Position numbers and translations under genes: made by a program. Shown piece by piece: positions 9,176 to 37,698 of a DNA stretch of 64,000 bases. How positions within the stretch are numbered: the first letter of the stretch is position 1; the number at the start of each line of letters is the position of its first letter. Source of the stretch: Nitrospira sp. CR1.3 (lineage in GTDB: Bacteria; Nitrospirota; Nitrospiria; Nitrospirales; Nitrospiraceae); contig WIAH01000014.1 of the NCBI GenBank assembly GCA_014055525.1, forward strand, positions 1-64,000, given 5' to 3'. Below the pieces are notes generated by a model that was not told where the DNA came from, did no database searches, and was given only the letters and a program-made list of their open reading frames with translations.

Positions 9176-9198
9176 TTGAGTCTCACCGGAGGACGCGA

Positions 9199-18600: not shown

Positions 18601-18652
18601 GGGTGACCGGCTGCGGGTCATTGGGGACAGGCTCGGCGAGAAGCTGGGGAAC

Positions 18653-18686
18653 GGGGACAGTCGCGACCGGAAAGGCGACAGTCCCC
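18653..18686. terminator. GGGGAC-type hairpin
   Basis: GGGGAC-A-GTCGC pairs with GCGAC-A-GTCCCC, again with one A-A mismatch. It is embedded in a stretch (about 18615-18700) of further GGGGAC words. Confidence 0.6.
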
Positions 18687-18780
18687 GCACAGGAGGGGTT
18701 GCAGACACTGTCGCCTGATCCAAGTGCCTTCTCTGTTGTGCGACTAGAATTCTTGAGATATAGTCGCGCCACCCAATTCG

Positions 18781-19089
18781 ATGAAAAGCCTGAATGAGAT
18801 CCGTCAACAACTATCCACCGGTGCGTTTGAGTTCAGCAGACATGCCTTCAAACGCGCCATCGAACGTGACATCAGCGATGCGGAAATCCGGCAAGCAGGG
18901 GCACAGGCGAGAATCATCGAGGATTATCCCGATGACAAGTACGCGGCCAGCAGTCTTTTGCTTGGTTTCACTGTAAGTGGACGTCCGATACACATTCAGG
19001 TCTCTCACCTTGATCCCGGCTTGGTGAAGATCATAACACTCTATGAGCCGGACCCTGCAGAGTGGTATGATTACGCCAGACGGAGGTAG
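18781..19089 (+). CDS. DUF4258 toxin-like protein
   Basis: A 102-residue DUF4258 protein: FEFSRHAFKRAIERDISDAE, then ARIIEDYPDDKYAASSLLLG, VSGRPIHIQVSH and VKIITLYEPDPAEW. DUF4258 belongs to the RelE/BrnT-like toxin fold and is usually paired with a YgiT-type zinc-finger antitoxin, exactly as here (2 bp gap). Toxin-first order is normal for this MqsRA-like pairing. Confidence 0.78.
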   Translation: MKSLNEIRQQLSTGAFEFSRHAFKRAIERDISDAEIRQAGAQARIIEDYPDDKYAASSLLLGFTVSGRPIHIQVSHLDPGLVKIITLYEPDPAEWYDYARRR

Positions 19090-22223: not shown

Positions 22224-22436
22224 TTAGGCAGGGACGTCAACGTAGTCGACTTGGCTGCTCGGAGGAGGAATGGGAAGGCCGTCTGCCCTGAGCCCTTGGA
22301 GATGAAATTCAATGACTTCGCGGATAAGGGATTCGGTTTCCATCACGGTGGAATCCGTGGCGACACAGCCAGGTAAGTCCGGCACATATGCCGCATAGTT
22401 CGCAGGAGCCTTCTCGATGACGATGGCATAGCGCAT
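22224..22436 (-). CDS. hicB: HicB-type antitoxin
   Basis: A 70-residue HicB-family antitoxin: MRYAIVIEKAPANYAAYVPD, LPGCVATDSTVMETESLIRE and EFHLQGLRADGLPIPPP, the partial RNase H-like fold that masks HicA. It lacks the extra C-terminal DNA-binding domain found in longer HicB proteins. It starts 1 bp after the HicA stop. Confidence 0.88.
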   Translation of the reverse strand: MRYAIVIEKAPANYAAYVPDLPGCVATDSTVMETESLIREVIEFHLQGLRADGLPIPPPSSQVDYVDVPA

Positions 22437-22437
22437 G

Positions 22438-22635
22438 TCAGTTCGCTCCCTTTTTCCAACCGGCTTGCTTAAAGATACTATTCACGGTCCCAGGAGGCAA
22501 GTCATCGCTGGGTTTGCCTGCTAGGGTCACTCGCCCTGGTTTGGTGGCATGTTTGAACTGGCGGTGACTGCCCTTCGTCGCCACAAGAAACCAGCCGTCC
22601 TCTCGGAGCCTCTCCAGCACATCGCCAACTTTCAC
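22438..22635 (-). CDS. hicA: HicA-type mRNA interferase toxin
   Basis: A 65-residue HicA toxin: MKVGDVLERLREDGWFLVAT, KGSHRQFKHATKPGRVTLAG with the catalytic His24, and LPPGTVNSIFKQAGW. This is the small double-stranded-RNA-binding fold that cuts mRNA. It is followed at once by its HicB antitoxin. Confidence 0.9.
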   Translation of the reverse strand: MKVGDVLERLREDGWFLVATKGSHRQFKHATKPGRVTLAGKPSDDLPPGTVNSIFKQAGWKKGAN

Positions 22636-22751
22636 GACGCAAGCATAACCAACTCAACCGGAGATTCCAAATGCTCCTGCCTGTAGGAAATCACCATTGT
22701 CCCCCATCCCTATCTCTCGCCTCAACCCCCTGCCCCATAGGCCCATTCCGT

Positions 22752-22769
22752 TGAATCACTTTTGATTCA
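22752..22769 (+). promoter_or_regulatory. Orphan activator dyad
   Basis: TGAATC-ACTTTT-GATTCA, identical to the dyad of microprotein copy 3. No GG-N10-GC promoter is found at the expected distance and no microprotein follows. It is either a leftover of a lost copy or a distant site for the TonB receptor/RiPP locus. Confidence 0.4.
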
Positions 22770-23141
22770 CCCGAGACCATTTATGATTCACCATTCGTCC
22801 TAGCCTCCGACTCCCCTGCTCCATTTTCCTGCCAAGCTCATGGCTCCAAATTGATGAAACCTGCCTGACTTGCTTTTAAGCAATCCATCAAATTGCAGCA
22901 TATTTCGGATTCTACAAGATGCATCGACGCTTGATTCACAAGCGGTCTGCTTCACGAGCACAGCTCTTGCTCTGCTGCACCATGTCGTGAGGGCTGAAGA
23001 GAGACAATCGAAGCGAGAAATATGAGAGGGAAACTGAAGCGGAATTTTGGAATGGTGCCACATTCGAATCAACAATGCAATGTTGAAGTAACCCATTCGA
23101 CTAGGGCCGTTCAGACGTGTTGCAAAAAGTAAGAAATACCC

Positions 23142-23169
23142 TTAACTAGGTCCCCCTTGACCTAATTGA
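23142..23169 (+). promoter_or_regulatory. Inverted repeat, candidate operator
   Basis: TAGGTC (23147-23152) and GACCTA (23159-23164) form an inverted repeat with a 6-base spacer, weakly extended outward. It lies about 60 bases before the receptor start and could be the binding site of a metal- or ligand-responsive repressor. It is not a clear Fur box. Confidence 0.35.
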
Positions 23170-23227
23170 CTATCCGTCCTCTTGTTGCTGACATCGCGCA
23201 GAGAGGAGCCAGTAGGAGTCGCTGCGA

Positions 23228-25504
23228 ATGAGCACTCAGGCTCCGAGAACAACAGAACCTCCCCCGAGACAAATTAGGACAGGTTCCGTCGCCTCAGCCG
23301 TGAGGAGCTTGTTGTTTTCGGTGCTCAGCAGTTTCTTGACCATCCATGCGTTCCATTCAAGCATCTTGGCACAGCCGCTCTCGCCTGAATCATCTGAGAA
23401 GACTTCAAAGGAACCACCTGAATCGGCGCCCCTAGACCTTCCTCCCACAGATGCAAAGGCCCAGGATGGCAAGATCGAAGAAATGGAGCTTGCCAAAGAA
23501 GAAGAAAGCGTGGCGCGCGAGAAAACAAGTCACGCGTCTATCGGTCGCGGCATGTTTCCGTCAGAAGAGACACCGATCTCTGAATCCCCTTCCAACGTGT
23601 ACATCATCACGGATGATGATATCAGGCAGTCCGGGGCCATTGATATCCCAACGATTCTTCGCAGCGTACCCGGCATTGAGGTGATGCAGGTCACTGGGGC
23701 AGATTTCAACGTCAGCGCCCGTGGCAACAACCAACTCCGTGCCAACAAGATGTTGGTCCTCGTTGACGGCCGCTCGATCTATTTAGACGTCCAAGGCGAA
23801 GTGCTCTGGAAAAATATTCCGGTTACCTTGCCCGAGATCAAACGAATTGAGGTCCTAAAGGGCCCGGCTGGAGCGATCTACGGCTTCAACGCCTTCGATG
23901 GGGTGATCAATATCATCACGAAATCTGCGAAAGAGATCAAGGGATCGTCCCCTGCGGGTGGCATACTACAATTCGGTGGCGGGGAATTCGGCACGATATC
24001 GAGCGCAGCTATTGTCGGAGTGACAGACAAAGCGGAAAAGTGGGGGCTGCGTCTCTCTGCCGGTCACAATCAGACGAATCAGTGGAACAATCGCGACTCA
24101 CTGGCCTTTCGCAATAACCTCTTCAACGGCCAAGTAGAACACCATTTTTCCGATGACTCCAAAGTTACGCTACAAGGTGGAATTGTGGATTCCAACCGCT
24201 ACATGGGACCATGGGTAGATGCTTTGCAGACCAATCAACAACCGATGCAGCGCTATACGAACGTCGTCTACGAACGGCCCGACTTCTTCATTCGAGCCTT
24301 TTGGACCGGGAATCAACAGCCAGGAACGTTGACGGCCAATCCTCTCGTTGCCCAGTTTTTTAGGGTCACGGACAATAACGGAAACACAAATTTGTTTATT
24401 AATTCGAATAGCTACAACGTCGAAGTGCAGAAGGTGTTGAGTTTATGGGCGAACAACCGTCTGACTGTAGGCGCCAACTATCGCTACAACACAGCGAGCA
24501 GTAACTTCATAGGGGGAGACGGAAATGCGTATGAACATCGTGTAGGGCTGTACCTGCAGGATGAGTGGCGTCTGACATCCAATCTGACCGCCGTCGCGGG
24601 GCTTCGCTATGACATTGATTCCTTCATCAATCCGACGATTAGTCCCCGAGCAGCAATCATCTATTCTCCATGGACTGATCACACGTTTCGTGCCGAGATA
24701 TCGGTCGGTTATCGGCCTCCGACGATCTTCGAGACAAGAACTTCGAACAGGGGATTCGTCAGCTTTACCTTGCCTGTCCCACCGATAACGATAACTACGC
24801 CGACACAGTTGAATGGAAACCCAAACCTCGCGCCCGAGCAAATTATTTCATACAACCTAGGATACCAAGGGTGGTATTGGAAGCATCGGGTGAGGGCCAG
24901 AGTAGACGGGTTTTACAATCATATCTCGGACTTGATCAGCATTGCGTCATTTTCCCAAACGAATATTTCATTTGCAAACGGCGGCAACCAGGGTCAAGGA
25001 GCACTCGCCGGTACTGCCGGTGGAGGTTCGGCCGACATCTACGGCGGTGAGGCGGGATTCGAGGTCTGGCCGAGACCATGGCTTTCGGCTTTTGCGAATA
25101 CGTCACTCGTCAAAATTCACCAGACCTACTCGTTGAATAACCGTGTCGCTCGTGGCGCTCCGGAGTGGAAAGCCAACGCCGGCATTCGGGCAGAGCATGA
25201 GAGTGGACTCAACGGACAGTTGCTCCTTCATTATGTCGCAGCAGCAACATACCCAGTTGATCCATTTTTCCAGACTGCGGCCGCTCCTCCATTCAACGGG
25301 TCTCCAGCTCCACTCAACACAGTTGGCAGCTACATCCTGTTTAACCCTCGTGTGGCATGGAAGTTCTGGCGGGAAAAAGGCAAAGGACGAGAGGCTGAAA
25401 TCGCAGTGGCCGGATTCAACGCGATCAATGACAAGCACAAGGAATCTCCCATAGGTGAAACCATCGGCAGCCGTTGGATGGGATGGCTGACAGTACGGTA
25501 CTAA
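23228..25504 (+). CDS. TonB-dependent outer-membrane receptor
   Basis: A 758-residue TonB-dependent receptor. After an N-terminal hydrophobic export signal (about 26-49) and a charged linker comes the plug domain: NVYIITDDDIRQSGAIDIPT, VPGIEVMQVTGADFNVSARG, MLVLVDGRSIY and IEVLKGPAGAIYGFNAFDGV, followed by a barrel (YLQDEWRLTSNLTAVAGLRY, NLAPEQIISYNLGY) ending in WLTVRY. These receptors import scarce ligands such as metal chelates, cobalamin or sugars using TonB energy. It lies 76 bp upstream of a RiPP precursor on the same strand, so the peptide or its metal complex is a candidate ligand. AGGAG precedes the start at slightly long spacing. Confidence 0.88.
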   Translation: MSTQAPRTTEPPPRQIRTGSVASAVRSLLFSVLSSFLTIHAFHSSILAQPLSPESSEKTSKEPPESAPLDLPPTDAKAQDGKIEEMELAKEEESVAREKTSHASIGRGMFPSEETPISESPSNVYIITDDDIRQSGAIDIPTILRSVPGIEVMQVTGADFNVSARGNNQLRANKMLVLVDGRSIYLDVQGEVLWKNIPVTLPEIKRIEVLKGPAGAIYGFNAFDGVINIITKSAKEIKGSSPAGGILQFGGGEFGTISSAAIVGVTDKAEKWGLRLSAGHNQTNQWNNRDSLAFRNNLFNGQVEHHFSDDSKVTLQGGIVDSNRYMGPWVDALQTNQQPMQRYTNVVYERPDFFIRAFWTGNQQPGTLTANPLVAQFFRVTDNNGNTNLFINSNSYNVEVQKVLSLWANNRLTVGANYRYNTASSNFIGGDGNAYEHRVGLYLQDEWRLTSNLTAVAGLRYDIDSFINPTISPRAAIIYSPWTDHTFRAEISVGYRPPTIFETRTSNRGFVSFTLPVPPITITTPTQLNGNPNLAPEQIISYNLGYQGWYWKHRVRARVDGFYNHISDLISIASFSQTNISFANGGNQGQGALAGTAGGGSADIYGGEAGFEVWPRPWLSAFANTSLVKIHQTYSLNNRVARGAPEWKANAGIRAEHESGLNGQLLLHYVAAATYPVDPFFQTAAAPPFNGSPAPLNTVGSYILFNPRVAWKFWREKGKGREAEIAVAGFNAINDKHKESPIGETIGSRWMGWLTVRY

Positions 25505-25580
25505 TTACGATGCCGGACGTTTACTCAGTGCGCTACCTGTCAACTGCATGTATCACAAAACATAACAGAGGAGGTGTGCG

Positions 25581-25883
25581 ATGGGAGTAGGTATTCCGCC
25601 GCCCGTTATATCCGATACGTTGAAGGATATTCTTCCTGATAATCTCAGGAATGCGGCTCATCATTGGGATCCCAAGTTCGATAGTATCACACGCGGCGAT
25701 CTTATGCGATTGGGCGGGTGGATGCCTCCAAAACCTGGTGCCAATCCACCGTACGAGGTGCCACCGAGTCCAGTTTTCCAAAGCCTAAGTCTGGTAGAAA
25801 TGAGAAATCTCGCCAAAATCTTGGAAGAATACAACCAGCTGACTTATGGACATTCCGTATATTTCTGCTGCTCTTGCGCTTAG
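25581..25883 (+). CDS. RiPP precursor peptide 1 (YFCCSCA core)
   Basis: A 100-residue peptide with GAGGAGGTG before its ATG. A leader (TLKDILPDNLRNAAHHWDPK, then ITRGDLMRLGGW) is followed by a Pro-rich spacer, a second helix (LAKILEEYNQLTYG) and the end HSVYFCCSCA. Precursor 2 keeps the leader motif ITRGDLMRL, the ILEEYN/ILEKYN helix, YG and the YFCCSC end, while the spacer differs. All Cys lie in the last five residues, the expected site of thiazole formation by the adjacent YcaO and SagB-type enzymes. No Gly-Gly cleavage site is seen; the leader may be cut near the YG. Product chemistry is inferred from gene context. Confidence 0.85.
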   Translation: MGVGIPPPVISDTLKDILPDNLRNAAHHWDPKFDSITRGDLMRLGGWMPPKPGANPPYEVPPSPVFQSLSLVEMRNLAKILEEYNQLTYGHSVYFCCSCA

Positions 25884-25973
25884 CAGGTCAAAGGGCTTGA
25901 GGGCAAGGAAAACAAAGGAGATGCCAACACGCGAGTCATACTTAGAGTAAGAAATCACACTAGGAGGAACAAG

Positions 25974-26330
25974 ATGGCTGCGCCAGACCAAGCACAAACC
26001 CTTGATCAGATTTTACCAGACACTTTAAAGACAAACGTTCATGGCTGGAAGACAAAATATGCAGGCATCACACGGGGCGATTTGATGAGATTGGCCGGGT
26101 TTTCTCCAGTAAGAGACATCCGTGAGAGACAAGAGGACTGGAAACCTGTTCCGAACCTAGGGCCCTATAATGGCCCTGGAGGCCCATACCCTAATGGTGG
26201 TCCTGGCAATTTGAGTGGAGTACTACTTCAGTTGAACGCCCAAGATATGATCACTCTATCTCGGATTTTGGAAAAGTACAATGGGATGTCCTACGGGACA
26301 TCCCTCTATTTCTGCTGTTCATGCGTGTAA
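25974..26330 (+). CDS. RiPP precursor peptide 2 (YFCCSCV core)
   Basis: A 118-residue paralogue with AGGAGG before the ATG. Shared parts: QTLDQILPDTLKTNVHGW, ITRGDLMRLAGFSP, an ILEKYNGMSYG helix and the end TSLYFCCSCV. The middle is longer and different, rich in Gly, Pro and Asn (GPYNGPGGPYPNGGPGN). Three Cys and one Ser in the last five residues, plus Ser/Thr just before, are the likely heterocyclised residues. The final residue changes from Ala to Val between the precursors, so two related products are expected. Confidence 0.85.
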   Translation: MAAPDQAQTLDQILPDTLKTNVHGWKTKYAGITRGDLMRLAGFSPVRDIRERQEDWKPVPNLGPYNGPGGPYPNGGPGNLSGVLLQLNAQDMITLSRILEKYNGMSYGTSLYFCCSCV

Positions 26331-26411
26331 CGTTCTAAAGTCGAAACACCTAGATATTGGCTGGCAGAACACTTGTCAGCCAATATCTGCACACATTCTA
26401 AGAGGGAATTG

Positions 26412-27506
26412 ATGCATCCTCTCGCCAACGGGACACGATTGAAGGCCCTCCCAATCCAATTGTTACACGTTAAGAATGGTATTGTGCTGAAACGGGGTTG
26501 CTGTGAGTTCATGGTCAGTGGAAACGGGTCTGCAGAAGCGGTTCACCGCATCCTTCTCGCGACTTCAAACGATAATCTAAACTCAACTGAAATCTGTGCC
26601 ATTTTTGCTGCTCCAGACCGGCCCGCCATCGAACGCCTGATTGGTCAATTAGCAGATCGGCGGTTTCTCGTACCGAGTGACTTACAAGACCCGCTTATGG
26701 ATGACGGAATTGAAAGAAGTCTTGAGGTTTTTTACTGGCACTTTGGCGCGCAAGAGATAGTAGCCGAGGAACGATTGAACAAGTCCTCACTGGCGATACT
26801 TGGCGTCAACACAATTTCACGTCAACTGGCCATGACTCTTGCATCGTCCAATGTGGTCAATTTTGACGTCATCGACTATCCGTTGCTCCGAAATCTACGC
26901 CTGTTTGACAGCAATACCGACTCACAGCTACGTGATTGGCCTACCCATCTTAAGGCACCTATGGGTTTCGCAAGATGGCTAGAGGAGACACGAGTGAGAC
27001 AGTTGGGATGTCTTATCGTCACATCTGATTTTGGATGGTCCCCGTCCGTGCGCGAATGGAATAAATTTTGCGTCGACCAAAAAATTGTGTTCTTTTCAGC
27101 TATCCTTCAGAATTTCATCGGTCAAGTCGGTCCAATAGTCATTCCGGGAGAGTCCGCATGCCTCGAATGCGTTAGAGCCCGACAAAATTCGAACATGGAT
27201 GATGTCGAGATCATGTGTACTCCAGAAGATGCAGCGTTTGAAGGACAGCGTGTGACCGGCTTTCACCCTTCTATGTCATCTATTGTCGGCGATATTGCAG
27301 CTTTTGAACTGACACGATTTTTCAGCGGCGTCATTCCCATGAGGAAGATTGGGACGTTGATCGAAGTAAATCTATTGACGATGAAGATGATACCGAGGAA
27401 AATTCTCAAAGTTCCTCGGTGTCCTGTTTGCAGTCCTTTGAACACACGCTCCTCAACTACGCACAAGAAGACACAATTTGCCGGGGCAACTCGAGTAGAC
27501 CCATGA
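26412..27506 (+). CDS. RRE/ThiF-like cyclodehydratase partner (ocin-ThiF)
   Basis: A 364-residue protein of the TOMM leader-binding, E1-like class. The N-terminal 85 residues look like a winged-helix RiPP recognition element (ILLATSNDNLNSTEICAIFA, IERLIGQLADRRFLV). An E1/ThiF-like fold follows, with two Cys-x2-Cys pairs (250/253 in ACLECVRA; 337/340 in CPVCSP) expected to bind zinc. Such proteins bind the precursor leader and present it to the YcaO enzyme. The ATG at 26412 is chosen over one 39 bases upstream because AGAGGG precedes it and the fold starts there. It overlaps the YcaO start by 4 bp. Confidence 0.85.
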   Translation: MHPLANGTRLKALPIQLLHVKNGIVLKRGCCEFMVSGNGSAEAVHRILLATSNDNLNSTEICAIFAAPDRPAIERLIGQLADRRFLVPSDLQDPLMDDGIERSLEVFYWHFGAQEIVAEERLNKSSLAILGVNTISRQLAMTLASSNVVNFDVIDYPLLRNLRLFDSNTDSQLRDWPTHLKAPMGFARWLEETRVRQLGCLIVTSDFGWSPSVREWNKFCVDQKIVFFSAILQNFIGQVGPIVIPGESACLECVRARQNSNMDDVEIMCTPEDAAFEGQRVTGFHPSMSSIVGDIAAFELTRFFSGVIPMRKIGTLIEVNLLTMKMIPRKILKVPRCPVCSPLNTRSSTTHKKTQFAGATRVDP

Positions 27507-28834
27507 TTACGTGTGCGCCAGCTTTGCAACGTCTCTTTGGTGTGCTGGATTACTTGGTTGATGAACGGGTTGGAGTCGTTCGTCATTTGACCGAGCTTGA
27601 GCGCGAACCTGGCGCACCTGAGTTTTTTCATTTCTTTGCCAAGACATGCGATACGCGCGCATTTAACCAGCAGCGGAATCACGGGAATGCCGGCGGAGCT
27701 TCAACGGAACGTGGCTTGGCTATGGCGAAGGCGATTGGGGAAGCAGTTGAACGGTATTGTTCGGCATTTTACGAGCGTGATGATTTAACTTTTACTTCCT
27801 TCGCGGAAGCCTCAGTTCCGTGCACGGATCCCTCTAGATTCGCTCTCTATCTAGACAGGCAATACAGGCAACCCTATTTTCCTTATGTTCCCTTTGGAAG
27901 AAATACACCAGTGTATTGGACGCACGCATGCGACGCGGTTACCGGAGATAAAGTGTATGTGCCTGCTGCGATGGTCTTTATGCCATATTATTTTCATGAT
28001 CAACGAGGAGAACAGCCCATTACGCAACGAATCTCGACGGGTCTGGCTTGTCACTGCAGTTGGCCCGAGGCTGCGATATCAGCTATTTGCGAAGTCATTG
28101 AGCGGGACGCATTTACGATTACTTGGCAAAGCATGCTTGGTCCTCCCCATATCCTGAACGACACCTTGAGTGACGAAAACACCGATCTGATCAAAAGAAT
28201 TGAGCACACAGGTGCGCGTGTCACCCTATTAAATATCACGCTAGAGCATGGTGTCCCGACGGTTCTAGCGGTTGCCCACCAACGAGGCCTTTCCGCGCCA
28301 GCATTGATCTTTGCCGCTTCCGCAAGCCTTGACCCTGAAATGGCTGCCCGTAAGAGCCTTGAAGAGCTTGCCCACACCTGGAGGCTAGCGCACCAGCTCA
28401 AGACAAGATTTCCTCCTCTTGTCCCAGGGCCATATTTCGAAAAGGTAAAAAACCAAGATGATCATGTTCACCTTTATTGTGACCATGCCAACACTTCACT
28501 GGCGGAATTCCTGTTTAATTCCTCTCGTCGGATCAATTTCCAGCAAATCGCCAAAATTTCAACAGGGGATGCTGAACAGGATTTGCAAAACATTGTTGAA
28601 AGACTTTTTCTTACGGGACACAAGGTACTGCTGGCAGACCTCACTACCACCGACATACGAGATCTTGGTCTTTGGGTTGTCCGAGCCATTATTCCTGGGT
28701 TCCATCCACTCTTTATCGGACACCATCTTCGAGCCCAAGGAGGTAGTCGACTCTGGGAGGTGCCACAACGACTCGGCTATAGAGGTATATTCAGGGAAAC
28801 CGGAGACAATCCTGCTCCTCACCCCTATCCTTAA
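27503..28834 (+). CDS. YcaO-domain azoline-forming cyclodehydratase
   Basis: A 443-residue YcaO protein. The ATP/Mg-binding signatures are clear: NAGGASTERGLAMAKAIGEA, VERYCSAFYE and the second acidic motif AAISAICEVIERDAF. The chain ends PAPHPYP, matching the C-terminal Pro-x-Pro-x-Pro motif of azoline-forming YcaO enzymes. Known members use ATP to convert Cys, Ser or Thr side chains into thiazolines or oxazolines. The ATG at 27503 overlaps the upstream stop (ATGA); the frame is open further up but only inside the neighbour. The YFCCSC precursor ends are the obvious substrates. Confidence 0.92.
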   Translation: MITCAPALQRLFGVLDYLVDERVGVVRHLTELEREPGAPEFFHFFAKTCDTRAFNQQRNHGNAGGASTERGLAMAKAIGEAVERYCSAFYERDDLTFTSFAEASVPCTDPSRFALYLDRQYRQPYFPYVPFGRNTPVYWTHACDAVTGDKVYVPAAMVFMPYYFHDQRGEQPITQRISTGLACHCSWPEAAISAICEVIERDAFTITWQSMLGPPHILNDTLSDENTDLIKRIEHTGARVTLLNITLEHGVPTVLAVAHQRGLSAPALIFAASASLDPEMAARKSLEELAHTWRLAHQLKTRFPPLVPGPYFEKVKNQDDHVHLYCDHANTSLAEFLFNSSRRINFQQIAKISTGDAEQDLQNIVERLFLTGHKVLLADLTTTDIRDLGLWVVRAIIPGFHPLFIGHHLRAQGGSRLWEVPQRLGYRGIFRETGDNPAPHPYP

Positions 28835-28851
28835 AGTTAAGCGGTAGTTCG

Positions 28852-29685
28852 ATGACCGATGAGCTGTGGCAAAGGATCTTGCTTCCGCCTGGTAACGACG
28901 ACGAGGTTTGGGAACTCTTCCACGAGAATTCGAAAATTGGCAGGCACAGTTACGCTTTTCCCATTGAAGAAGTGCGCGAAAAGGCACGCGAGTTTCATGA
29001 ATCTCTTCCCTACGAAACATATCCGTCGATCTCTCTTCCTTCACCACTGAGTGCCTTCCAGATGCCTCTTGAAAAAGCTATTCTCGGACGAGTATCCGTG
29101 CGTCATTTTGAACCACATACGCTCAACCTAGAAAGTCTCGCCACGCTTCTCCATTACGCCTATGGCGTGAACCGAGTAAGCGAGGATTCGACTCTTGCTC
29201 GTCCCTGTCGCGTAGTTCCATCAGGCGGAGCCCTTTATCCACTGGAGATCTATTTACACAGCACTCGAATCGAAGGACAGGCAGAGGGCCTGTATCACTA
29301 CAACCCGTCGACGAATAGTCTTCAACTGCTACATCAGGAAGACGGGACAGATCTTATCGCACAGACCGTTGTGCAGCCCCAGATTGTGTTAGGTGCGACG
29401 ATTGTGCTGTTTATTACTGGTGTCTTTAATCGGGCCATTTTCAAATACGGCGATCGAGGCTACCGATTTACCCTATTGGAAGCTGGGCACGTGGCGCAAA
29501 ATCTGAACCTGGTTTCTCAGTGCCTTGACCTTGGGTGTTTAAACATCGGAGGGTTTTTTGATCGTGAAGTTGACGATTACTTAGGCATCGATGGACTAAC
29601 ACATTCCACTATATACATGATGGCGATTGGAAAAGTACGGGAATTCAAGGGCCCAGAGGAAGGCAATCCACGATTTTTACCTTGA
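28852..29685 (+). CDS. SagB-type FMN-dependent dehydrogenase
   Basis: A 277-residue nitroreductase-fold protein of the SagB class: GRVSVRHFEPHTLNLESLAT, RVVPSGGALYPLEIYLHSTR and EGLYHYNPSTNSLQLL in the first half, then LLEAGHVAQNLNLVSQCLDL in the second. These are the characteristic SagB-type motifs. Known members oxidise azolines to aromatic azoles using FMN, so mature thiazoles rather than thiazolines are predicted. It starts 17 bp after the YcaO gene. Confidence 0.92.
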   Translation: MTDELWQRILLPPGNDDEVWELFHENSKIGRHSYAFPIEEVREKAREFHESLPYETYPSISLPSPLSAFQMPLEKAILGRVSVRHFEPHTLNLESLATLLHYAYGVNRVSEDSTLARPCRVVPSGGALYPLEIYLHSTRIEGQAEGLYHYNPSTNSLQLLHQEDGTDLIAQTVVQPQIVLGATIVLFITGVFNRAIFKYGDRGYRFTLLEAGHVAQNLNLVSQCLDLGCLNIGGFFDREVDDYLGIDGLTHSTIYMMAIGKVREFKGPEEGNPRFLP

Positions 29686-29697
29686 AGGAGCACAGAC

Positions 29698-31158
29698 ATG
29701 CCAATTAGCCTTGATGATTCTAAAATTAATTACGATTCCCCTGAATACGAGGAAATGCTCAACGATTTACAGGGAAACATCTTAAAGGGGCATGGTCGAG
29801 ACTACAATGTCTCGATTGTGCTCCGATTCAAGACAAATCAAAAGACAAAGGCTGCTGAATTCATTCGCACTCTTGCTGAGAACACCATTACCTCCACAAA
29901 GCGACAACTCCAACAGATAGCGGATTATCGTTCTCGGCGAATTCGAGGCCAATTATTTGCTAACTTGTGTCTTTCATATAAAGGTTATCAGTTTTTTGGG
30001 TATTCCCAGGACCAAATACCTGCTGATCCTCGCTTCCGCGCTGGCATGAAGCAAGTGGGGCAGATTCTAAATGATCCAGATCCCAGCCAGTGGGAAGCGC
30101 CCTATCAAAATGACAGTCATGCCATTGTCTTACTCGCGAATGACAGTGAGCTAACTCTTCAAGGTCAGGCTCGACAAATTCTTCAAAGGGTAAAGGAAAA
30201 CGACATCGCCGATATTTTGACTGTTGAGTACGGTGTCGCACTAAAGAATGAGGCAGACGAGCCTATCGAACATTTTGGATATGTTGACGGAATCAGCCAG
30301 CCACTCTTCTTTAAACAGGATATAGATAGAACCAAGAGAGATAGCGGACTAAATGAATACGATGACTTTAGCCGGTTCGATTCCACCGCCTCGCTAGGGC
30401 TCGTTTTAGTGCGAGATCCTAACGGAAGATCTGCGGATAGCTTCGGAAGTTATATGGTATTCCGAAAGCTCGAGCAAAATGTCAGAGGATTTAAGGAAGA
30501 ATTGGAGCGACTAGCAGACGCACTGGGATTGAAGGGAGAGACAGCGCGCGATAGAGCAGGTGCAATGGTCATAGGTAGATTTGAGGATGGGACCCCCCTT
30601 ATCACACAAGAATTGGATGGAGGGACCTATTCGAACGATTTCAACTACGCCGGAGAAAATGGAGCCAAGTGCCCATTCCATGCCCATATCCGAAAAACAA
30701 ATCCGCGCGGGGAAACGGTCGTACAGGATTTTAGGTATGACGAAGCGGCCTTATACCAAGAGGAACGGGCTCATCGCATAGTTAGAAGAGGTATCACCTA
30801 CGGCAAGAGAAATGTAGAGCCCTATGAGAATCCGCTTCCTGAAGAATGCCCCACAGCCGGGGTAGGGGTATTATTCATGTGTTTTCAAAGTGACATCGCC
30901 AAGCAGTTTGAATTTATCCAGATTCAGATGTCGAACAACTCCGAATTTCCGCGCCCAAGCACTGGCATTGACCCGCTTATTGGCCAAGGACAGGCTTCAT
31001 CGTCGCAATCGTGGCCGCAGGAGTGGGGAAAACCGGAGAGTATTCAGTTCGATTTTACTAGATGCGTGACCCTGAAGGGGGGCGAGTATTTCTTCATGCC
31101 CAGTATAAGCTTTCTGAAAACCATCTCCACTGCGACTCCCCAGGAGCCAGTGTATTGA
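29698..31158 (+). CDS. Dyp-type peroxidase in RiPP operon
   Basis: A 486-residue Dyp-type heme peroxidase: LNDLQGNILKGHGRDY at the N-terminus, GXXDG as FGYVDGISQP (Asp197), proximal ligand His330 in CPFHAHIRKTNPRGE, and GGEYFFMPS near the end. No signal peptide or encapsulin tag is seen. It begins 12 bp after the SagB-type gene with AAGGAG, so it appears to be part of the operon. Dyp enzymes oxidise dyes, porphyrins and phenols with peroxide; here Tyr residues near the core, the azoles or a metal complex could be targets. It is a distant relative of the Dyp half of the fusion at 4988-7801. Confidence 0.9.
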   Translation: MPISLDDSKINYDSPEYEEMLNDLQGNILKGHGRDYNVSIVLRFKTNQKTKAAEFIRTLAENTITSTKRQLQQIADYRSRRIRGQLFANLCLSYKGYQFFGYSQDQIPADPRFRAGMKQVGQILNDPDPSQWEAPYQNDSHAIVLLANDSELTLQGQARQILQRVKENDIADILTVEYGVALKNEADEPIEHFGYVDGISQPLFFKQDIDRTKRDSGLNEYDDFSRFDSTASLGLVLVRDPNGRSADSFGSYMVFRKLEQNVRGFKEELERLADALGLKGETARDRAGAMVIGRFEDGTPLITQELDGGTYSNDFNYAGENGAKCPFHAHIRKTNPRGETVVQDFRYDEAALYQEERAHRIVRRGITYGKRNVEPYENPLPEECPTAGVGVLFMCFQSDIAKQFEFIQIQMSNNSEFPRPSTGIDPLIGQGQASSSQSWPQEWGKPESIQFDFTRCVTLKGGEYFFMPSISFLKTISTATPQEPVY

Positions 31159-31365
31159 CCCTTGTAAGGACTGGTATCGTGTCGGGGGTCGTAATTACCT
31201 CGACAGTTTGGCCGCCGCCACAACTCAGAGCGGGACCAACGTCATGTGCCAAGAAGTTCTCCGCTTGACTATCTCAATTTACGGGGAGCTTACAGGGTAA
31301 ATTATTTTGGCCTGCAAAGCAGATTGGAAACCCAGGGTTCAACATTATCAAATCCGATCCACCCT

Positions 31366-31383
31366 AGAATCTAATCCGATTCA
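31366..31383 (+). promoter_or_regulatory. Activator dyad, fifth microprotein
   Basis: AGAATC-TAATCC-GATTCA, one base from the TGAATC-N6-GATTCA dyad. Its centre lies about 95 bp upstream of the -24 GG. Confidence 0.5.
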
Positions 31384-31467
31384 GACCAATCTCAACTGAT
31401 CTCCCCCTGCTCGTCGAATTCCAGGCAATCCGGCGTGGATTCCATGCCAACAGCGCACAGGAGCCAA

Positions 31468-31483
31468 TGGCACAAGGCTTGCT
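31468..31483 (+). promoter_or_regulatory. Sigma-54-type promoter, fifth microprotein
   Basis: TGGCACAAGGCTTGCT fits the consensus TGGCAC-N5-TTGCW at every fixed position, with GG and GC 10 bases apart. It is the best sigma-54-type match I noticed in the window. The start codon at 31551 is about 70 bases downstream. An in-frame ATG at 31467 overlaps this promoter and is therefore unlikely to be the start. Confidence 0.7.
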
Positions 31484-31550
31484 GACTTCATGGGTGGGAT
31501 CCTCACTAGAGCACAAGTTCACTGATGGCCAAAAGGGAAAGGATCTTCTC

Positions 31551-31727
31551 ATGCCACAGGACCTGGTGATTGGAGTCCTCCTCGCAGGATTGGTCGGGCT
31601 TATTTGGGCCATGACGATCTCGCTGCTCTGGACTGATCCATCGGGGCCTGGTGCGCCGGATGCACAGGCTTCCACTGACCAGCCGGAGCAGGGAGAGGCC
31701 GGACACAAGCACACCGTTGCCGCATGA
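31551..31727 (+). CDS. Single-TM small protein, sigma-54-type controlled
   Basis: A 58-residue protein: MPQDLVIGVLLAGLVGLIWA starts a single membrane helix ending LLWTD, then a hydrophilic tail rich in Pro, Gln, Glu and His (DQPEQGEAGHKHTVAA). AAAGGA precedes the ATG at 31551. Its start-helix-Trp-Asp layout recalls the 28-residue microproteins but the sequence is different and a soluble tail is added. Its stop overlaps the next start by 4 bp. The dyad and promoter upstream place it in the same probable regulon. Function unknown. Confidence 0.62.
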   Translation: MPQDLVIGVLLAGLVGLIWAMTISLLWTDPSGPGAPDAQASTDQPEQGEAGHKHTVAA

Positions 31728-32071
31728 TTCACAACGGCCATGCCCGCACTCGGATTCGGTCTGGTCCTCCACCGACGGAGACTCTTTCTCCCGTTGTCCA
31801 CAATGAAGCGGCATGTGCGAAGCCGAATTTCTTAGGCCGGAAGCAGCGCGTCACGATTACCTTACCGGTTGCGCTGCTTGAGCGACTGCGTAATGCGGTC
31901 TATTGGACTGGCCACAGCACCCTAGCCCACCTCATTGCCGGTTCATTAGACGAGGCCGTGACTCAGATGGAGCATGTGAACGGCGGGCCGTTCCCTGCTC
32001 GGCTCGCCCCTCTCAAACGTGGACGCCCCAGACTACTCACACCCCGCATGCTTCCTCCATCTTCAGAGTAA
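31724..32071 (+). CDS. Possible ribbon-helix-helix DNA-binding protein
   Basis: A 115-residue protein coupled to the membrane microprotein by an ATGA overlap. The first 40 residues are basic and disordered-looking; then RKQRVTITLPVALLERLRNA, VYWTGHSTLAHLIAGSLDEA resembles the strand-helix-helix of ribbon-helix-helix proteins (VTITLP strand). A basic Pro/Arg tail (LKRGRPRLL) follows. It may regulate transcription or be the soluble partner of the membrane peptide. The call is moderate because the fold is short. Confidence 0.55.
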   Translation: MIHNGHARTRIRSGPPPTETLSPVVHNEAACAKPNFLGRKQRVTITLPVALLERLRNAVYWTGHSTLAHLIAGSLDEAVTQMEHVNGGPFPARLAPLKRGRPRLLTPRMLPPSSE

Positions 32072-32337: not shown

Positions 32338-34317
32338 ATGGTCGCTGCGGGCGGGCCCTATTCGATTCTCATCGTAGAAGACAATCCGGATATCGTCATC
32401 GGGTTGCAAGACCTGCTGCAGCATGACGGCTATCTGGTGAGCGTCGCCGGAACCTGCGCCGCTGCCATCGCGCAAATTCATGACCGTCGCTTCAGCGTCA
32501 TCATTCTTGATTTGGCGCTGCCTGACGGCGACGGCCTGGATGTCCTGAAGGAGATGCAGCGGCTGGACCCCTCCGTCCCGGTGGTGATTCTGACCGCCCA
32601 CATTGCACCGGAAAAAACGGTGGGGTCGCTGGTCAAGGGAGCCTTTTCTTACCTGACGAAACCGTACAACCGCGAGGAACTCAGGCAGACGCTGCAACGC
32701 GCGGTCGGCGTCAAGGAATTGGCCGTTAAGGCGGAACGAGCAGAGCATTTGCTCACCGAGAGCGAAGACCGGTTCCGCTCGTTGGTCGAGTCCGCGACCG
32801 ACGCCATCATCCTGGCCGACGGACGGGGTATGGTCGTGTCCTGGAACAAGACCGCCTCTCGATTGTTCGGCTATGACGCCGACGAAATCCTGGGAAGCCC
32901 GCTCACCAAACTGATGCCGGTTCGATACCGTCATGCCCATGAACAGGGAATCGCCAGGATCGAAGCCACGGGCAAGAGCCGCGTCATCGGCACCGTCATC
33001 GAGCTGCATGGCCTGAAAAAAGATGGCTCCGAATTTCCGATCGAGCTGTCCCTGGGAACCTGGAAAACGGCGACGGGAAATTTCTACAGCGGCATCATTC
33101 GAGACATCTCCTGGCGAAAAGCCGCCGAACACACGTTGCGGGCCAGCGAGGAACGTCTCGAACTGGTGATTCAGGGATCGAGCGACGGGTTCTGGGACGG
33201 CCACGTGCTTCCGGGAGAGCATTGGAGTTCTCCCCGCACGCCCATTTGGTGGTCCTCCCGTGTCAGAGAGATGCTCGGCTATAGCGACGCGGAATTTCCA
33301 GACGTGCTCGAAAGCTGGATCTCGCGCCTGCACCCCGACGATCGTGACCGTGTCTTTGCCGCGCTCACAGCGCATATCGAACGGCGGGTGCCCTACGATG
33401 AGGAATACCGGCTGTTGACGAAGCTGGGCGAGTACCACTGGTTTCGAGCGCGAGGCCAGGCCATCTGGGACGCGGAGGGTCGGGTCACCCGCATGGCCGG
33501 ATCGCTGCAATCGGTCATGGATCGCCGGCGGGCGGATGAAGCTGTCCGCCGAAGCGAACAATTGCTGCGAAGCGTGGCCGACCATACGACCGCCGTGATT
33601 TATGTCAAGGACGCCGGCGGGCGGTATCTCCTGATCAATCGGCGGTTCGAGCAGATTTTCAGCCTCACCGCGGAGCGCATCATCGGTCGCACCGATCATG
33701 AGATCTTTCCCCGCGACATCGCCGATGCGTTCCGAGCCAACGACGTCGAAGTCCTCAGCCGCAACACGACCATCGAATACGAGGAAACCGCCCCTCATAC
33801 CGACGGGCTCCATACCTATATTTCCATCAAACTGCCGCTCCACGACCAGGCTGGGGTTCCCTACGCCATGTGCGGGGTCTCCACCGACATTACCGAGCGG
33901 AAACGCATGGAGCAGGTTTTGAAACACCACGACTCGCAGCTGGAACTGGCGCTCAAAGCCGTCGACGTCGGAACCTGGAACTGGGACTTCGTGACCGGCC
34001 GCATGTGCTGGTCATCGCGCGTGGAGCGCTTCTTTGGCGGCGCGGACGAAGCGCGCGCGCTCACGGTGAACGACTGGCTCTCTCGGGTGCATCCGGATGA
34101 TCGAGATCGCTTCGCCGACAGTCTTCGTCGCGTCAGCGAGCAGCAGGGCGACGATCTGTTGCTCCAACACCGCGTTCTGAAACGCGGGGGCGGATCGCAG
34201 AGGGCCGTCTGGACCGGCCAACTGATTCGAGATCGAGAGGGGCGGTTGATACAGGCGCTCGGAACCCTTGGAGCGATCGAAGATGAGAGTGATCCTCACT
34301 CACGCGACATCGCGTAG
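32338..34317 (+). CDS. Response-regulator receiver with four PAS domains
   Basis: A 659-residue soluble protein. Residues 5-125 are a receiver domain (LIVEDNPDI; phospho-acceptor Asp58 in IILDLALPDGDG; Lys in FSYLTKPY). Four PAS/PAC modules follow at about 145-270, 275-400, 405-530 and 535-650 (SATDAIILADGRGMVVSWNK; HPDDRDRVFAAL; VKDAGGRYLLINRRFEQIFS; HPDDRDRFADSL). The chain ends after the last PAS with no kinase, cyclase, GGDEF or DNA-binding domain. It may signal by protein contact with the kinase encoded two genes on. GAGGTG precedes the ATG. Confidence 0.85.
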   Translation: MVAAGGPYSILIVEDNPDIVIGLQDLLQHDGYLVSVAGTCAAAIAQIHDRRFSVIILDLALPDGDGLDVLKEMQRLDPSVPVVILTAHIAPEKTVGSLVKGAFSYLTKPYNREELRQTLQRAVGVKELAVKAERAEHLLTESEDRFRSLVESATDAIILADGRGMVVSWNKTASRLFGYDADEILGSPLTKLMPVRYRHAHEQGIARIEATGKSRVIGTVIELHGLKKDGSEFPIELSLGTWKTATGNFYSGIIRDISWRKAAEHTLRASEERLELVIQGSSDGFWDGHVLPGEHWSSPRTPIWWSSRVREMLGYSDAEFPDVLESWISRLHPDDRDRVFAALTAHIERRVPYDEEYRLLTKLGEYHWFRARGQAIWDAEGRVTRMAGSLQSVMDRRRADEAVRRSEQLLRSVADHTTAVIYVKDAGGRYLLINRRFEQIFSLTAERIIGRTDHEIFPRDIADAFRANDVEVLSRNTTIEYEETAPHTDGLHTYISIKLPLHDQAGVPYAMCGVSTDITERKRMEQVLKHHDSQLELALKAVDVGTWNWDFVTGRMCWSSRVERFFGGADEARALTVNDWLSRVHPDDRDRFADSLRRVSEQQGDDLLLQHRVLKRGGGSQRAVWTGQLIRDREGRLIQALGTLGAIEDESDPHSRDIA

Positions 34318-34359: not shown

Positions 34360-35328
34360 ATGCGACACAGGACACATTGCTCCACGCGAACCAGTCCTCG
34401 ACTGCGAGCCATGTTGTGGCTGGCCCTCACCCTGTTCGGCTTGCCGGCTCTTCAGATCACGTGGGCAACCGACGCCGTGGCCGTCGAGATTGCCATCCTC
34501 AAATCCTCAAGTCTTGCCGCCTACGATCAAGCGATCGAAGGATTCAAGATGGGAGCCCCCCGCGGCGCCGTCTATGCGGAATACGATCTGCAGGGAGATC
34601 TGGAGCAGGGCAAGAAACTCGCGAGGAAAGTGCGCGCCTCGGACGCCTCCCTCGTCGTCGCGGTCGGTCTGAAAGCGGCTCTGGCAGCCAGGCTGGAGAT
34701 CATCGATGTCCCGATCCTGTACATGATGGTGTTGGACCCGTCCAGGCATAACCTTGCCGGACCGAACATGACTGGCACGCTGCTGGAAATCCCCGTCGAG
34801 CGCCAATTGAAACTCATCCGATCGTTCTTGCCGAACGCGAAACACCTCGGAACACTCTACGATCCAAAGAAGAACGCCGCCAGGGTGAAGGAGGGAGAGC
34901 AGCAGGGAGGCCTACAGTCGTTCAACACAAGGGGGTTCCCGGTCGAGAGTGAGAAGGACGTTCCGCAGCAATTGCGCAATCTTTTGGCTTCCAACGACGC
35001 CTTGTGGCTGATGCCGGATTCCACTGTGCTCACGAACGAATCGATCGGCTTCATTTTGGAAGAGGCGTTAGCCCGGAGAATCCCCGTCATCGGTTTCTCT
35101 CCAGAACTCACCAGGCTCGGCGCTCTTCTGAGCTTTTCTGTGACGTACGGTGAAGTGGGGGTTGAGACAGGCAGGTTCGCGAAGCGCCTCCTGGACGGAG
35201 AACGCCAGCTTCCCCTAAAACCGATCCCCATCGAACGAGTCAAGATTACCGTCAACATGAAAACGGCCCGTTTCCTCGGGATTGAATTTCCGAACGATGT
35301 CAGTCACCTTATTGACGAGCTGTACTGA
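34360..35328 (+). CDS. ABC transporter substrate-binding-like protein
   Basis: A 322-residue exported protein: a signal peptide in the first 40 residues (MLWLALTLFGLPALQITW), then two Rossmann-like lobes typical of the ABC_sub_bind family (VVAVGLKAALAARLEIIDVP, LYMMVLDPSRHNL, LGTLYDPKKNAA, IPVIGFSPELTRLGALLSFS). No permease or ATPase gene is nearby. Next to a membrane histidine kinase it is more likely a periplasmic ligand sensor than a transporter part. It ends 6 bp before the kinase start. Confidence 0.82.
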   Translation: MRHRTHCSTRTSPRLRAMLWLALTLFGLPALQITWATDAVAVEIAILKSSSLAAYDQAIEGFKMGAPRGAVYAEYDLQGDLEQGKKLARKVRASDASLVVAVGLKAALAARLEIIDVPILYMMVLDPSRHNLAGPNMTGTLLEIPVERQLKLIRSFLPNAKHLGTLYDPKKNAARVKEGEQQGGLQSFNTRGFPVESEKDVPQQLRNLLASNDALWLMPDSTVLTNESIGFILEEALARRIPVIGFSPELTRLGALLSFSVTYGEVGVETGRFAKRLLDGERQLPLKPIPIERVKITVNMKTARFLGIEFPNDVSHLIDELY

Positions 35329-35334: not shown

Positions 35335-37698
35335 ATGACACAGGCTCAATTGCCGCAACGTATCGCCGGCTCGGGCTCAGCCGCCACGGACAGGTTCGTC
35401 AGCCTGCGCACCAAGTTCGTGGTATTTTTCAGCCTCATCCTGACCCTGACCTGCTCCACCCTGACCTGGTATTTCATCGAGGCCAGGCGGACTGCGGTGA
35501 TGTCGGACATCAAGCAGCTCGGCGCCATCCTCTTGACCAGTATCGTGAACAACGGGCAGTTCCGATATGGAGGGCTGATCGCGGAAGATCGCGCCACGCT
35601 CGAACAATTTACCAAAAGTCTCATGGCGGTCGAGGACGTGGTCTACGTGGTGATCCGAGGCGCGGACCGCATGATTCTCGCCCAGCAGAACAAACTCGTG
35701 AAGGAGTCCCTCGGCAGCGTGACGTTTTTACAGGAACGCCGATTCTATCCCGACGAGCGGATTGCCCTCGACATATCCAGTCGACCGATCTCAACTCTTC
35801 AGATGACCCGCGTGGTGCTGTCGGACGAGAAGGTTCTCACTCCAGCAGCCGCTGCGCCGGATTGGTTTAGGATTGAATCGCCTCTCACAGAGAACCTCTA
35901 TGACTTCGCGCTACCGGTTCTTGGAAAGTCGGCGACTGATCCGGCCCAGTCCACCTTGCCGCACCAGCTCGATGAGATACCTCAAGCCGGCCAACCACCT
36001 CAACCTCCCGCCTATCTTGGAACTGTCCAGATCGGAATCACCGATGCGCGAGTCAGACGCACCTTGATCGGCCTGATTCAGAATGCATCGATCCTGACCC
36101 TGCTGTTGATCGGCGCCGGCATCCTGGGGGCTCACTTTCTCGCATTGCGCATCACCACCCCTCTGCGCAGTCTTGCCGGCGTGGCGCGCAAATTGGCCGA
36201 AGGTGGATCACCCGCCCCATTGACGCCGTCGACTCTAGACGAAGTCGGGCAACTCACGCAAACGTTCAATCTCATGACCCACGCGCTCTATGAACGGAAT
36301 CTCGCCATTACCGCAAATATGGATACGATCAGGCGGCAGATCAGTCAATTGACGACCGTCCATCAAACCAGCTCGGCGATCTCCAGCACCTTGAATCTGC
36401 ACGAGCTGCTCGACACCGTGCTGCAGCTTCTCATGACCAACCTCAAGTTCTCCCGCATGCTGCTGATGCTACGCCATGAGGGCCGTGACACGGCCTATGT
36501 CGCCCAGGTCGCCGGGGTCTCGGACGAGATCCGTGATGCCTCGCGCTACATCACCGTGCCTATTCAGGACGACGGGACGCTGATGGCCGAGTTGATGCTT
36601 CATGCGAAACCGATATTGGTCTACGACATCGCCGCTGTGGGAGCACGCATGCACCCGGCTATCCTGGAGCTGGCTCGTCGCGTGGGAGTGACATCCTTCG
36701 TCTGCGTGCCGCTCCAGAGCCACAATCAGACACTCGGCTTCCTCGGAGGGGACCGCGGCCTGCAGCCATGCTCCGAGGAGGATCTTGAGATCCTCTCGAC
36801 CATCGCGGGCCACGTCGCCTCCGCCATCGACAACGCGAGGACCTATGCCAACCTGTCGCAGCTGACGCAACATCTGGAGCAACGGATCGAAGCGCGCACG
36901 CATGAGCTGTCGACCGCGAATGAGCTTTTGCAGGAGCATGATCATCGCCGTTCTGTGTTTTTCTCGGTGGCCTCACATGAATTGCGGACTCCCATGACGG
37001 CGATCCGCAGCTTTGCCGACAATATGCTGGACGGAATCGCCGGTCCGCTGACGGAGCGGCAAAAGACCTACCTGACCCGCATCGAACACAATCTCAACCG
37101 GCTGACCAGGATCATCAATCAATTACTGGATTGGTCGCGCCTGGATCTGAAGAAGGAAACGCTGAACCTCGAACCGCTCTGTGTTCGGCAGATCGCGGAA
37201 CTCGTGGTCGACAGTCTCAGAACTGTGGCCGCAGAAAAACAGATCGCGCTGGATATCACGTTTCCGGGGCAGCTCCCCCAGATCCAAGCCGACCGAGACA
37301 AGGTGGAACAGATTTTCTGGAACCTCGTCGGCAACGCCATCAAGTTCACGCCCTTCCAAGGACGTGTAAGCGTGGAGATTACGGAAACCGCTACGGGAGA
37401 TGTGCAGGCCTGCGTGGCCGACACCGGGTGCGGGATCGCCCCCGAGTATCTCGACAAGGTGTTCAACGAATTTTCCAAGATCCCGTCATCTTTCCCGGCC
37501 TCACAAGGGGCGCAACTCGGCCTGTTCATCACGAAAAGCCTCATGCGCATGCACGGCGGGACCATACGGGTCGACAGCAGGCTTCAGGCCGGCACGCGCT
37601 TCTATATTGTATTTCCGTCGATGTCGCCATCCGCCGAAAGCGGGGAACAGTGCGAGAAACGCGAGAGAGGCGGGACTGGCGAAGAGCGGACCACGTGA
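35335..37698 (+). CDS. Membrane sensor histidine kinase (HAMP, GAF)
   Basis: A 787-residue kinase. One membrane helix at about 27-46 (FFSLILTLTCSTLTWYFIEA), a periplasmic sensor of roughly 200 residues, a second helix (ILTLLLIGAGILGAHFLAL), HAMP, a coiled coil, a GAF domain (LLMTNLKFSRMLLML onward), HisKA with His548 in SHELRTPMTA, and a HATPase with its N, G1 and G2 boxes. The last 15-20 residues (EKRERGGTGEERTT) are encoded by a GCGAGA-type repeat, so the C-terminus seems to have grown into repeat DNA. It likely pairs with the NtrC-type regulator downstream and takes input from the binding protein upstream. Confidence 0.88.
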   Translation: MTQAQLPQRIAGSGSAATDRFVSLRTKFVVFFSLILTLTCSTLTWYFIEARRTAVMSDIKQLGAILLTSIVNNGQFRYGGLIAEDRATLEQFTKSLMAVEDVVYVVIRGADRMILAQQNKLVKESLGSVTFLQERRFYPDERIALDISSRPISTLQMTRVVLSDEKVLTPAAAAPDWFRIESPLTENLYDFALPVLGKSATDPAQSTLPHQLDEIPQAGQPPQPPAYLGTVQIGITDARVRRTLIGLIQNASILTLLLIGAGILGAHFLALRITTPLRSLAGVARKLAEGGSPAPLTPSTLDEVGQLTQTFNLMTHALYERNLAITANMDTIRRQISQLTTVHQTSSAISSTLNLHELLDTVLQLLMTNLKFSRMLLMLRHEGRDTAYVAQVAGVSDEIRDASRYITVPIQDDGTLMAELMLHAKPILVYDIAAVGARMHPAILELARRVGVTSFVCVPLQSHNQTLGFLGGDRGLQPCSEEDLEILSTIAGHVASAIDNARTYANLSQLTQHLEQRIEARTHELSTANELLQEHDHRRSVFFSVASHELRTPMTAIRSFADNMLDGIAGPLTERQKTYLTRIEHNLNRLTRIINQLLDWSRLDLKKETLNLEPLCVRQIAELVVDSLRTVAAEKQIALDITFPGQLPQIQADRDKVEQIFWNLVGNAIKFTPFQGRVSVEITETATGDVQACVADTGCGIAPEYLDKVFNEFSKIPSSFPASQGAQLGLFITKSLMRMHGGTIRVDSRLQAGTRFYIVFPSMSPSAESGEQCEKRERGGTGEERTT

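Follow-up and report, generated by a model that had tools for sequence, protein, structure and literature searches.

The 64,000-nucleotide stretch of Nitrospira sp. CR1.3 analysed here (contig WIAH01000014.1; hereafter the window) carries an operon predicted to make an azole-bearing ribosomally synthesised and post-translationally modified peptide (RiPP); it is preceded on the same strand by the gene of a TonB-dependent outer-membrane receptor, an arrangement found at every related locus of the order where the receptor position is visible. The chances are about even that the product of the locus is a short linear azole peptide, which is released and re-imported via its own TonB receptor; some functional link between receptor and product is rather probable, and a metallophore-like role of the product falls somewhat short of an even chance. 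Slightly more tentative is the full proposal, namely a ribosomal metallophore of a new kind in Nitrospirales, the order of the nitrite oxidisers: a C-terminal quater-azole peptide that would be made by YcaO and SagB enzymes, finished by a dye-decolorising peroxidase (DyP), released and loaded with metal. A TonB receptor dedicated to it would bring it back and report to an adjacent cassette of binding protein, kinase and sigma-54 regulator. The original prediction for this DNA named no role; the usual antibiotic role is not what the neighbourhood suggests.

The operon had been described as six genes on one strand with small gaps or overlaps, and a check of the open reading frames (ORFs) found all of them open on the forward strand between 25581 and 31158. 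That description was incomplete, as the gene set starts one gene earlier, with the receptor (23228 to 25504; 758 amino acids, plug and beta-barrel), located directly upstream of precursor A with a 76-bp gap. Precursor A (25581 to 25883; 100 amino acids, ending in YFCCSCA) and precursor B (25974 to 26330; 118 amino acids, ending in YFCCSCV) are followed by the C protein, a predicted leader-binding E1-like partner of the cyclodehydratase (26412 to 27506), the D protein, a YcaO cyclodehydratase (27503 to 28834), the B protein, a SagB-type FMN azoline dehydrogenase (28852 to 29685), and the DyP (29698 to 31158). The two precursor genes are 90 bp apart and precursor B lies 81 bp ahead of C; in the enzyme part the distances are -4 bp (C to D), 17 bp (D to B) and 12 bp (B to DyP). 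The gene positions first given stood overall, with the exception of two starts: D most likely begins at ATG 27503 and not at 27419, giving a 4-bp overlap (ATGA) with the stop of C, and C itself is best begun at ATG 26412, shorter than the listed ORF. Between precursors and enzymes, the forward strand can form a 17-pair hairpin, with 3 G-U pairs and no T run (26351 to 26389), the intergenic stretch having a minimum free energy of -27.4 kcal/mol; such an element would suit higher expression of the precursors, by processing, stability or attenuation.

The receptor matches PF00593 (112 bits) and PF07715 (67.7 bits), and its nearest solved structure is the colicin I receptor, followed by a siderophore receptor and BtuB. 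No close paralog is present in its own genome, which is 93% complete and holds 7 plug domains in 3.46 Mb; the next match reaches 33% over 146 amino acids. Conservation of its place was followed in three samples. A search with the YcaO protein gave a match in 17 of 99 related genomes, with E below 1e-117 in eight, one of which is the genome of the window; the seven other close loci (L022-L028) read receptor, precursor(s), C, D and B, with a methyltransferase gene after the receptor in L028. A profile scan of genome contigs yielded 476 YcaO relatives; among the best 80, which were used, the receptor occurs in seven (L030, L031, L032, L033, L036, L038, L062), four of which are records of genomes already counted (L030 is L022, L036 is L025, L038 is L027 and L062 is L028). 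The seven are labelled Nitrospirota or below, except L033, which is labelled Nitrospinota and corresponds to G217, placed in the order of the window. At the other 73 loci, from many phyla, no TonB receptor was seen in the stretches examined, some of which have short flanks or come from hosts without an outer membrane. Finally, among 235 genomes of the order, a search with the profile found this YcaO in 17 at E <= 1e-60, 11 already seen (G217 being L033, G221 L032 and G230 L031) and six new; L024 and L032 are near-copies, their precursors one residue apart.

In 16 of these 17 genomes the receptor lies upstream on the same strand, although in L033 it is known from the last 279 bases on the contig only; the 17th, G220 (L183), has a weak YcaO match of 324 bits on a 3,968-bp contig where the receptor position cannot be judged. 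Nothing was recognised between receptor and precursor at 14 of the 16 loci (in L186, between receptor and C), and one gene at two, the methyltransferase of L028 and an FAD-oxidoreductase-like gene in L188. Loci fetched after the pattern had been noticed and having enough flank (L184-L188) show the same placement in five cases out of five. The presence of the receptor gene beside the operon in every relative where it is visible suggests release and re-uptake of the product, rather than a simple toxin.

The two precursors are 50% identical, with the ITRGDLMRL and YFCCSC blocks fully conserved between them. Neither matches any Pfam or NCBIfam model at E <= 1. A profile of DyP-type precursors matched 5 of the 99 related genomes, always beside YcaO loci only (besides the window, four of the five matched genomes hold loci used to build it); it fails to detect the looser precursors in G026, G050 and G090. 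A DyP gene is found at nine of the 16 loci (the window, L022, L023, L024, L025, L031, L032, L184 and L185), and all 11 precursors of these loci end in at least four contiguous Cys/Ser/Thr residues starting with CC, followed by two further residues at most: CCSC-A, CCSC-V, CCTC-V, CCTCT, CCTC-W twice, CCSC-LG twice, CCCCT, CCTCC and CCST-W. In each of the 11, the first Cys among the final 26 residues is preceded by a Tyr at a distance of no more than 12. At the six loci with a known precursor and no DyP, a preceding Tyr is found at 5 residues in L028, at 16 in L033 and not at all in the other four. Their cores are looser: in five of the six, at least three Cys/Ser/Thr stand in a run, L028 being the exception; the run stops well before the C-terminus or exceeds five residues in L026, L027, L033 and L187, and in L188 it is CCTCS, far from the precursor end. 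No precursor was found in L186. The pairing of Tyr and DyP was dropped as a statistical association, and no statistical claim is made for it, because the tree yields only one supported independent pair. A selenocysteine reading, raised by TonB models named for motifs with U, was dropped as well, since the precursors end in TAG or TAA.

The assignment of the locus to the TOMM (thiazole/oxazole-modified microcin) or linear azole-containing peptide (LAP) systems, already made in the original prediction, held up on closer analysis. The C protein scores 42.5 bits against TIGR03882 (cut-off 36.9) and 42.3 against PF00899 (cut-off 28.1), and 79.5 bits against TIGR03603, under the cut-off of 187.65; four of its cysteines (C250, C253, C337 and C340, as CxxC...CxxC) are invariant in eight sequences, and its profile finds MccB, MusD, TruD and LynD as nearest solved structures. 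The D protein reaches 311.1 bits for TIGR03604 (cut-off 219.25) and 218 for PF02624 (cut-off 25.7), its nearest solved structures being MusD, TruD and LynD; E108/E111/R112, E225/E228/R229 and E315/E316 (numbering of the long ORF) are invariant in eight orthologs, and it ends in PAPHPYP, a proline-rich tail of the sort that we take to be linked to azoline formation. The B protein scores 152 bits for TIGR03605 (cut-off 78.4), has McbC among its solved relatives (E 6e-12) and contains, in KYGDRGYR, what is presumably the KY motif of SagB. Judged from these sequences, azole formation by the C, D and B enzymes is very likely.

The DyP passes TIGR01413 narrowly (105.0 bits, cut-off 100.5), and the closest solved sequences are Alr1585 (AnaPX; 5c2i, E 3e-125) and DyP2 (4g2c, E 3e-93), relatives by which it presumably belongs to class C; its GYVDG and HIRK motifs are taken to be those of the heme site. 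Unlike these enzymes, it is encoded in a RiPP operon, and we know of no RiPP role of DyP peroxidases. Its inclusion in the operon is correct for the window, but it is not a fixed part of the system, as it was not seen in the stretches examined at seven of the 16 loci, including L033, whose contig ends 1.3 kb after B and whose DyP absence is uncertain. After B, where L022-L025 have the DyP, L026, L027/L038 and L028/L062, as well as L186, encode a protein of HExxH type, with the motif AHEVGGH or AHEIGGH, then EAAxDxCG in L038/L062; the two copies tested match no Pfam family, and it is possible that the protein is a leader peptidase.

What the sequences show is gene content, conservation and co-occurrence; azoles, export, cargo, import and sensing are inferred. 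In the proposed mechanism the C protein would bind the leader at the TRGDLMRL region, and the YcaO protein, using ATP, would cyclise the Cys-Cys-Ser-Cys run to azolines, which SagB may then oxidise to thiazoles and an oxazole. The DyP, which is seen only with a compact run and a close preceding Tyr, would oxidise a further group, the candidate being the Tyr/Phe beside the run. Release of a C-terminal fragment with as many as four azoles in a row could be the work of a protease encoded elsewhere. When 2,4-linked azoles adjoin one another, they provide N-C-C-N chelation as oligopyridines do; thus, a metal could be bound by the product. Free or as a metal complex, the product would be brought back by the TonB receptor, and the adjacent binding protein, kinase and sigma-54 regulator might report it to the cell.

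Compared with known systems, the chemistry appears closest to TOMM/LAP and the layout closest to methanobactin operons (PMC3621798 and PMC9601215, in the parts compared). As in TOMM/LAP clusters with discrete enzymes, a SagD-type YcaO D protein, a leader-binding E1-like C protein and a SagB-type dehydrogenase accompany adjacent precursors with a long leader and a Cys-rich, heterocyclisable C-terminal core, here two paralogs with homologs in the relatives; what differs is the core, which has just four heterocyclisable residues and sits at the very C-terminus, the DyP, the TonB receptor at every locus where it is visible, and the lack of any recognised exporter or protease gene. The absence of the latter had been noted before, and it was borne out as far as the Pfam scan goes, which covered 34 different window proteins and not every window ORF: neither an exporter nor a leader peptidase was recognised among them, the rest of the genome not having been searched. 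With methanobactin (MbnABC, MbnT) the locus shares a heterocycle-bearing RiPP, a TonB receptor gene in the operon, upstream on the same strand, and FAD oxidoreductases at some loci (L026, L027, L186 and L188), whereas YcaO and SagB replace MbnB and MbnC, families that neither Pfam nor NCBIfam detects among the operon proteins, no MATE exporter was recognised, and metal binding is only a candidate property. The original prediction also held that the core is unlike known ones, and indeed no class in the compared sections of Cox et al. 2015 (PMC4603692) fits it; its main text never contains the words TonB, peroxidase or Nitrospira. The parts covered of PMC8939145, PMC7298704, PMC13188914 and PMC7680869 describe no azole peptide cluster with a linked TonB receptor; the last is a microcin review that, in those parts, names TonB receptors for siderophore microcins and not for the azole peptide microcin B17. 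No literature combining YcaO, SagB and a DyP-type peroxidase was found, in a search that left subscription papers mostly outside.

The core is, nevertheless, not isolated, being one end of a wider C-D-B family in Pseudomonadota, Bacteroidota, Chloroflexota, Acidobacteriota and Prochloron (L030-L072, L104, L108), in which the leader motif resembles LTKGDLxAL and the polyCys cores are mostly longer and often resemble CCCxCTPxCCC. To our knowledge, characterised linear azole peptides are mainly antibiotics and toxins. Examples are given in the sections of PMC4603692 compared, where the cytolysin family has a Gly followed by at least 10 contiguous heterocyclisable residues. An unlikely alternative is that the azole peptide is secreted to act on other bacteria or on membranes, as a shortened relative of the streptolysin-S-like polyCys class, with the receptor serving self-uptake, immunity or an unrelated nutrient. 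The polyCys cores of the sister clusters in many phyla, often with an end like CCCxCTPxCCC, speak for it, as do three of six sister precursors tested, which give sub-threshold matches to the streptolysin S model (E 0.0097, 0.011 and 0.4); none of the six reaches any NCBIfam cut-off. However, the window precursors match no streptolysin model (TIGR03602), both have a run of four residues (CCSC) instead of the at least 10 of the cytolysins, neither an ABC exporter nor a CaaX-like protease was recognised among the window proteins scanned, and outside this subclade the receptor is not seen. Six sister loci have an ORF of 706-814 amino acids after B; five of these were scanned, giving three weak TPR matches, one AsmA-like protein and one without match.

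Downstream of the operon, on the same strand, the window encodes a set of sensing proteins: at 1.2 kb, a response regulator with PAS domains (32338 to 34317), then a periplasmic binding protein of the ABC_sub_bind family (34360 to 35328; PF04392, 102 bits), a histidine kinase with HAMP, GAF, HisKA and HATPase domains (35335 to 37698) and a sigma-54 response regulator (37855 to 39297; PF00158, 240 bits). A cassette of this kind, lacking the RiPP, occurs in G002, a genome of the same genus, where identity to the window proteins is 73% for the binding protein, 68% for the kinase, 76% for the sigma-54 regulator (199 amino acids compared), 54-68% in pieces for the PAS regulator, and 52% for the receptor. 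We interpret the cassette as a sensing unit common to the two genomes, in which the receptor was swapped along with the RiPP genes: the receptor is only 52% identical, against 68-76% for binding protein, kinase and sigma-54 regulator, which suggests that receptor and RiPP arrived together. Since the cassette is found with and without RiPP, its binding protein probably recognises the same ligand in the two settings, for instance a metal or metal complex. Joint low guanine-cytosine (GC) content of receptor and RiPP, considered as proof of joint transfer, was weakened by the RiPP-free TonB gene being low in GC too (0.53 in G002).

These genes are the basis of a second alternative, which we consider quite improbable: the product would be a signalling peptide that enters the periplasm through the TonB receptor and is sensed there by binding protein and kinase, leading to self-induction. 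In the window the two adjoin, and no permease gene separates or flanks them; a gene related to the window kinase or binding protein is present at nine of the 16 loci (the window, L025, L027, L028 and L184-L188). On the other hand, the closeness of the binding protein to that of the RiPP-less cassette makes a peptide-specific ligand improbable, and at seven of the 16 loci neither gene was seen in the stretches examined, a finding that weighs also against the main proposal of release and re-import.

Less probable still is that the receptor is a merely inherited neighbour, the RiPP genes having landed beside a TonB cassette and the pair having been passed on unlinked. All loci belong to one order, where receptors of this family are common and often in tandem, as that explanation would have it; yet YcaO identity to the window protein falls to 45% and the flanks differ, and place and strand of the receptor are kept at all 16 visible loci. 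Moreover, the receptor and YcaO trees both recover a group of the window with L023 and groups of L022/L024 or L032/L031, the other branches being poorly resolved. In favour of the main proposal, the receptor-bearing YcaO proteins form one side of a branch, with support of 100/97 in a tree of 10 rows and 98/90 in one of 15, from which the long-branch row L183 was left out and to which three more outgroup rows were added; with L183 kept in, holding the 15 receptor loci together gave a p-AU of 0.0398 (approximately unbiased test; log-likelihood loss 0.79). Likewise, among the RiPP-linked receptors, eight of nine fall in one 10-row branch (84/94). As YcaO proteins also make thioamides and amidines, the enzymes might leave unoxidised azolines or make thioamides, but the C-D-B trio, the TIGR03604 score well above its cut-off, the proline-rich C-terminus and the lack of TfuA among the operon proteins make this highly improbable.

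Several observations weigh against re-import of a metallophore-like peptide through its own receptor. At least 12 genomes contain members of the receptor family without the RiPP; the L028 receptor lies outside the main receptor group, which in turn includes two RiPP-unlinked copies, with moderate support, and a single clade of all RiPP receptors is absent from the best tree, though not rejected (p-AU 0.385). In 13 of 14 upstream regions a Fur-like box scored no better than in shuffles; the score in L031 was attained by 9 of 200 shuffles, with the site inside a coding start. Neither an exporter nor a metal regulator was recognised near the operon, low GC is shared with the RiPP-free receptor gene of G002, and the sister clusters have streptolysin-S-like cores.

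If release and re-import are nonetheless confirmed, an azole peptide would serve nutrient capture instead of warfare. Already the link of an azole-peptide lineage with an outer-membrane importer points to a second role, the capture of a nutrient or a signal, in Nitrospirales. The locus gives a concrete candidate receptor-ligand pair, with a compact four-residue core that suits synthesis, a candidate substrate for a DyP peroxidase within a RiPP operon, and a natural comparison within one genus between the same cassette with and without RiPP.

RiPP-free receptor cassettes are frequent in this order. In L146, L148 and L152, for instance, binding-protein and kinase genes accompany a member of this receptor family, and the RiPP is absent; L145-L148, L150-L153, L157 and L159 show one or more TonB receptors, some in tandem, followed by ABC_sub_bind and kinase genes, often with a PAS or sigma-54 regulator. 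A scan of 17 loci for precursor-like Cys-tailed ORFs near RiPP-free TonB genes gave none that was convincing. Associated with the window operon, though not part of its core, is a small ribbon-helix-helix-like protein (31724 to 32071, forward strand; PF07878 at 17.7 bits, under the cut-off of 26), 78% identical over 54 amino acids to one in the RiPP-less cassette of G002. Other regulatory candidates were rejected or gave nothing: no consistent sigma-54 site precedes the TonB genes, counts from a sigma-70 promoter and terminator scan of 22600-31600 were within those of shuffles, and the search for a riboswitch gave no Rfam match at all in the window between 20 and 40 kb.

Upstream of the receptor, the reverse strand encodes a HicAB toxin-antitoxin pair (22224 to 22635) and a PIN-domain protein (18142 to 18810). 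Farther upstream, the window carries a FadL/TodX-type porin and histidine kinase pair (7811 to 11511), with homologues at L184:152-4310, L185:14587-18706 and L150:11825-15952; the pair stands beside TonB receptors in these three relatives, as upstream neighbour of the RiPP locus in L184 and L185 and without RiPP in L150, which hints at uptake of something hydrophobic. Next to it in the window, a forward-strand gene (4988 to 7801) codes for a 937-amino-acid protein joining a DyP peroxidase (PF21105, PF20628) to a C-terminal half that matches solved cytochromes P450 (best E 3e-14); with what we take to be the heme motifs of DyP and P450, it looks like a bacterial peroxidase-P450 fusion, presumably reminiscent of the fungal oxylipin synthases.

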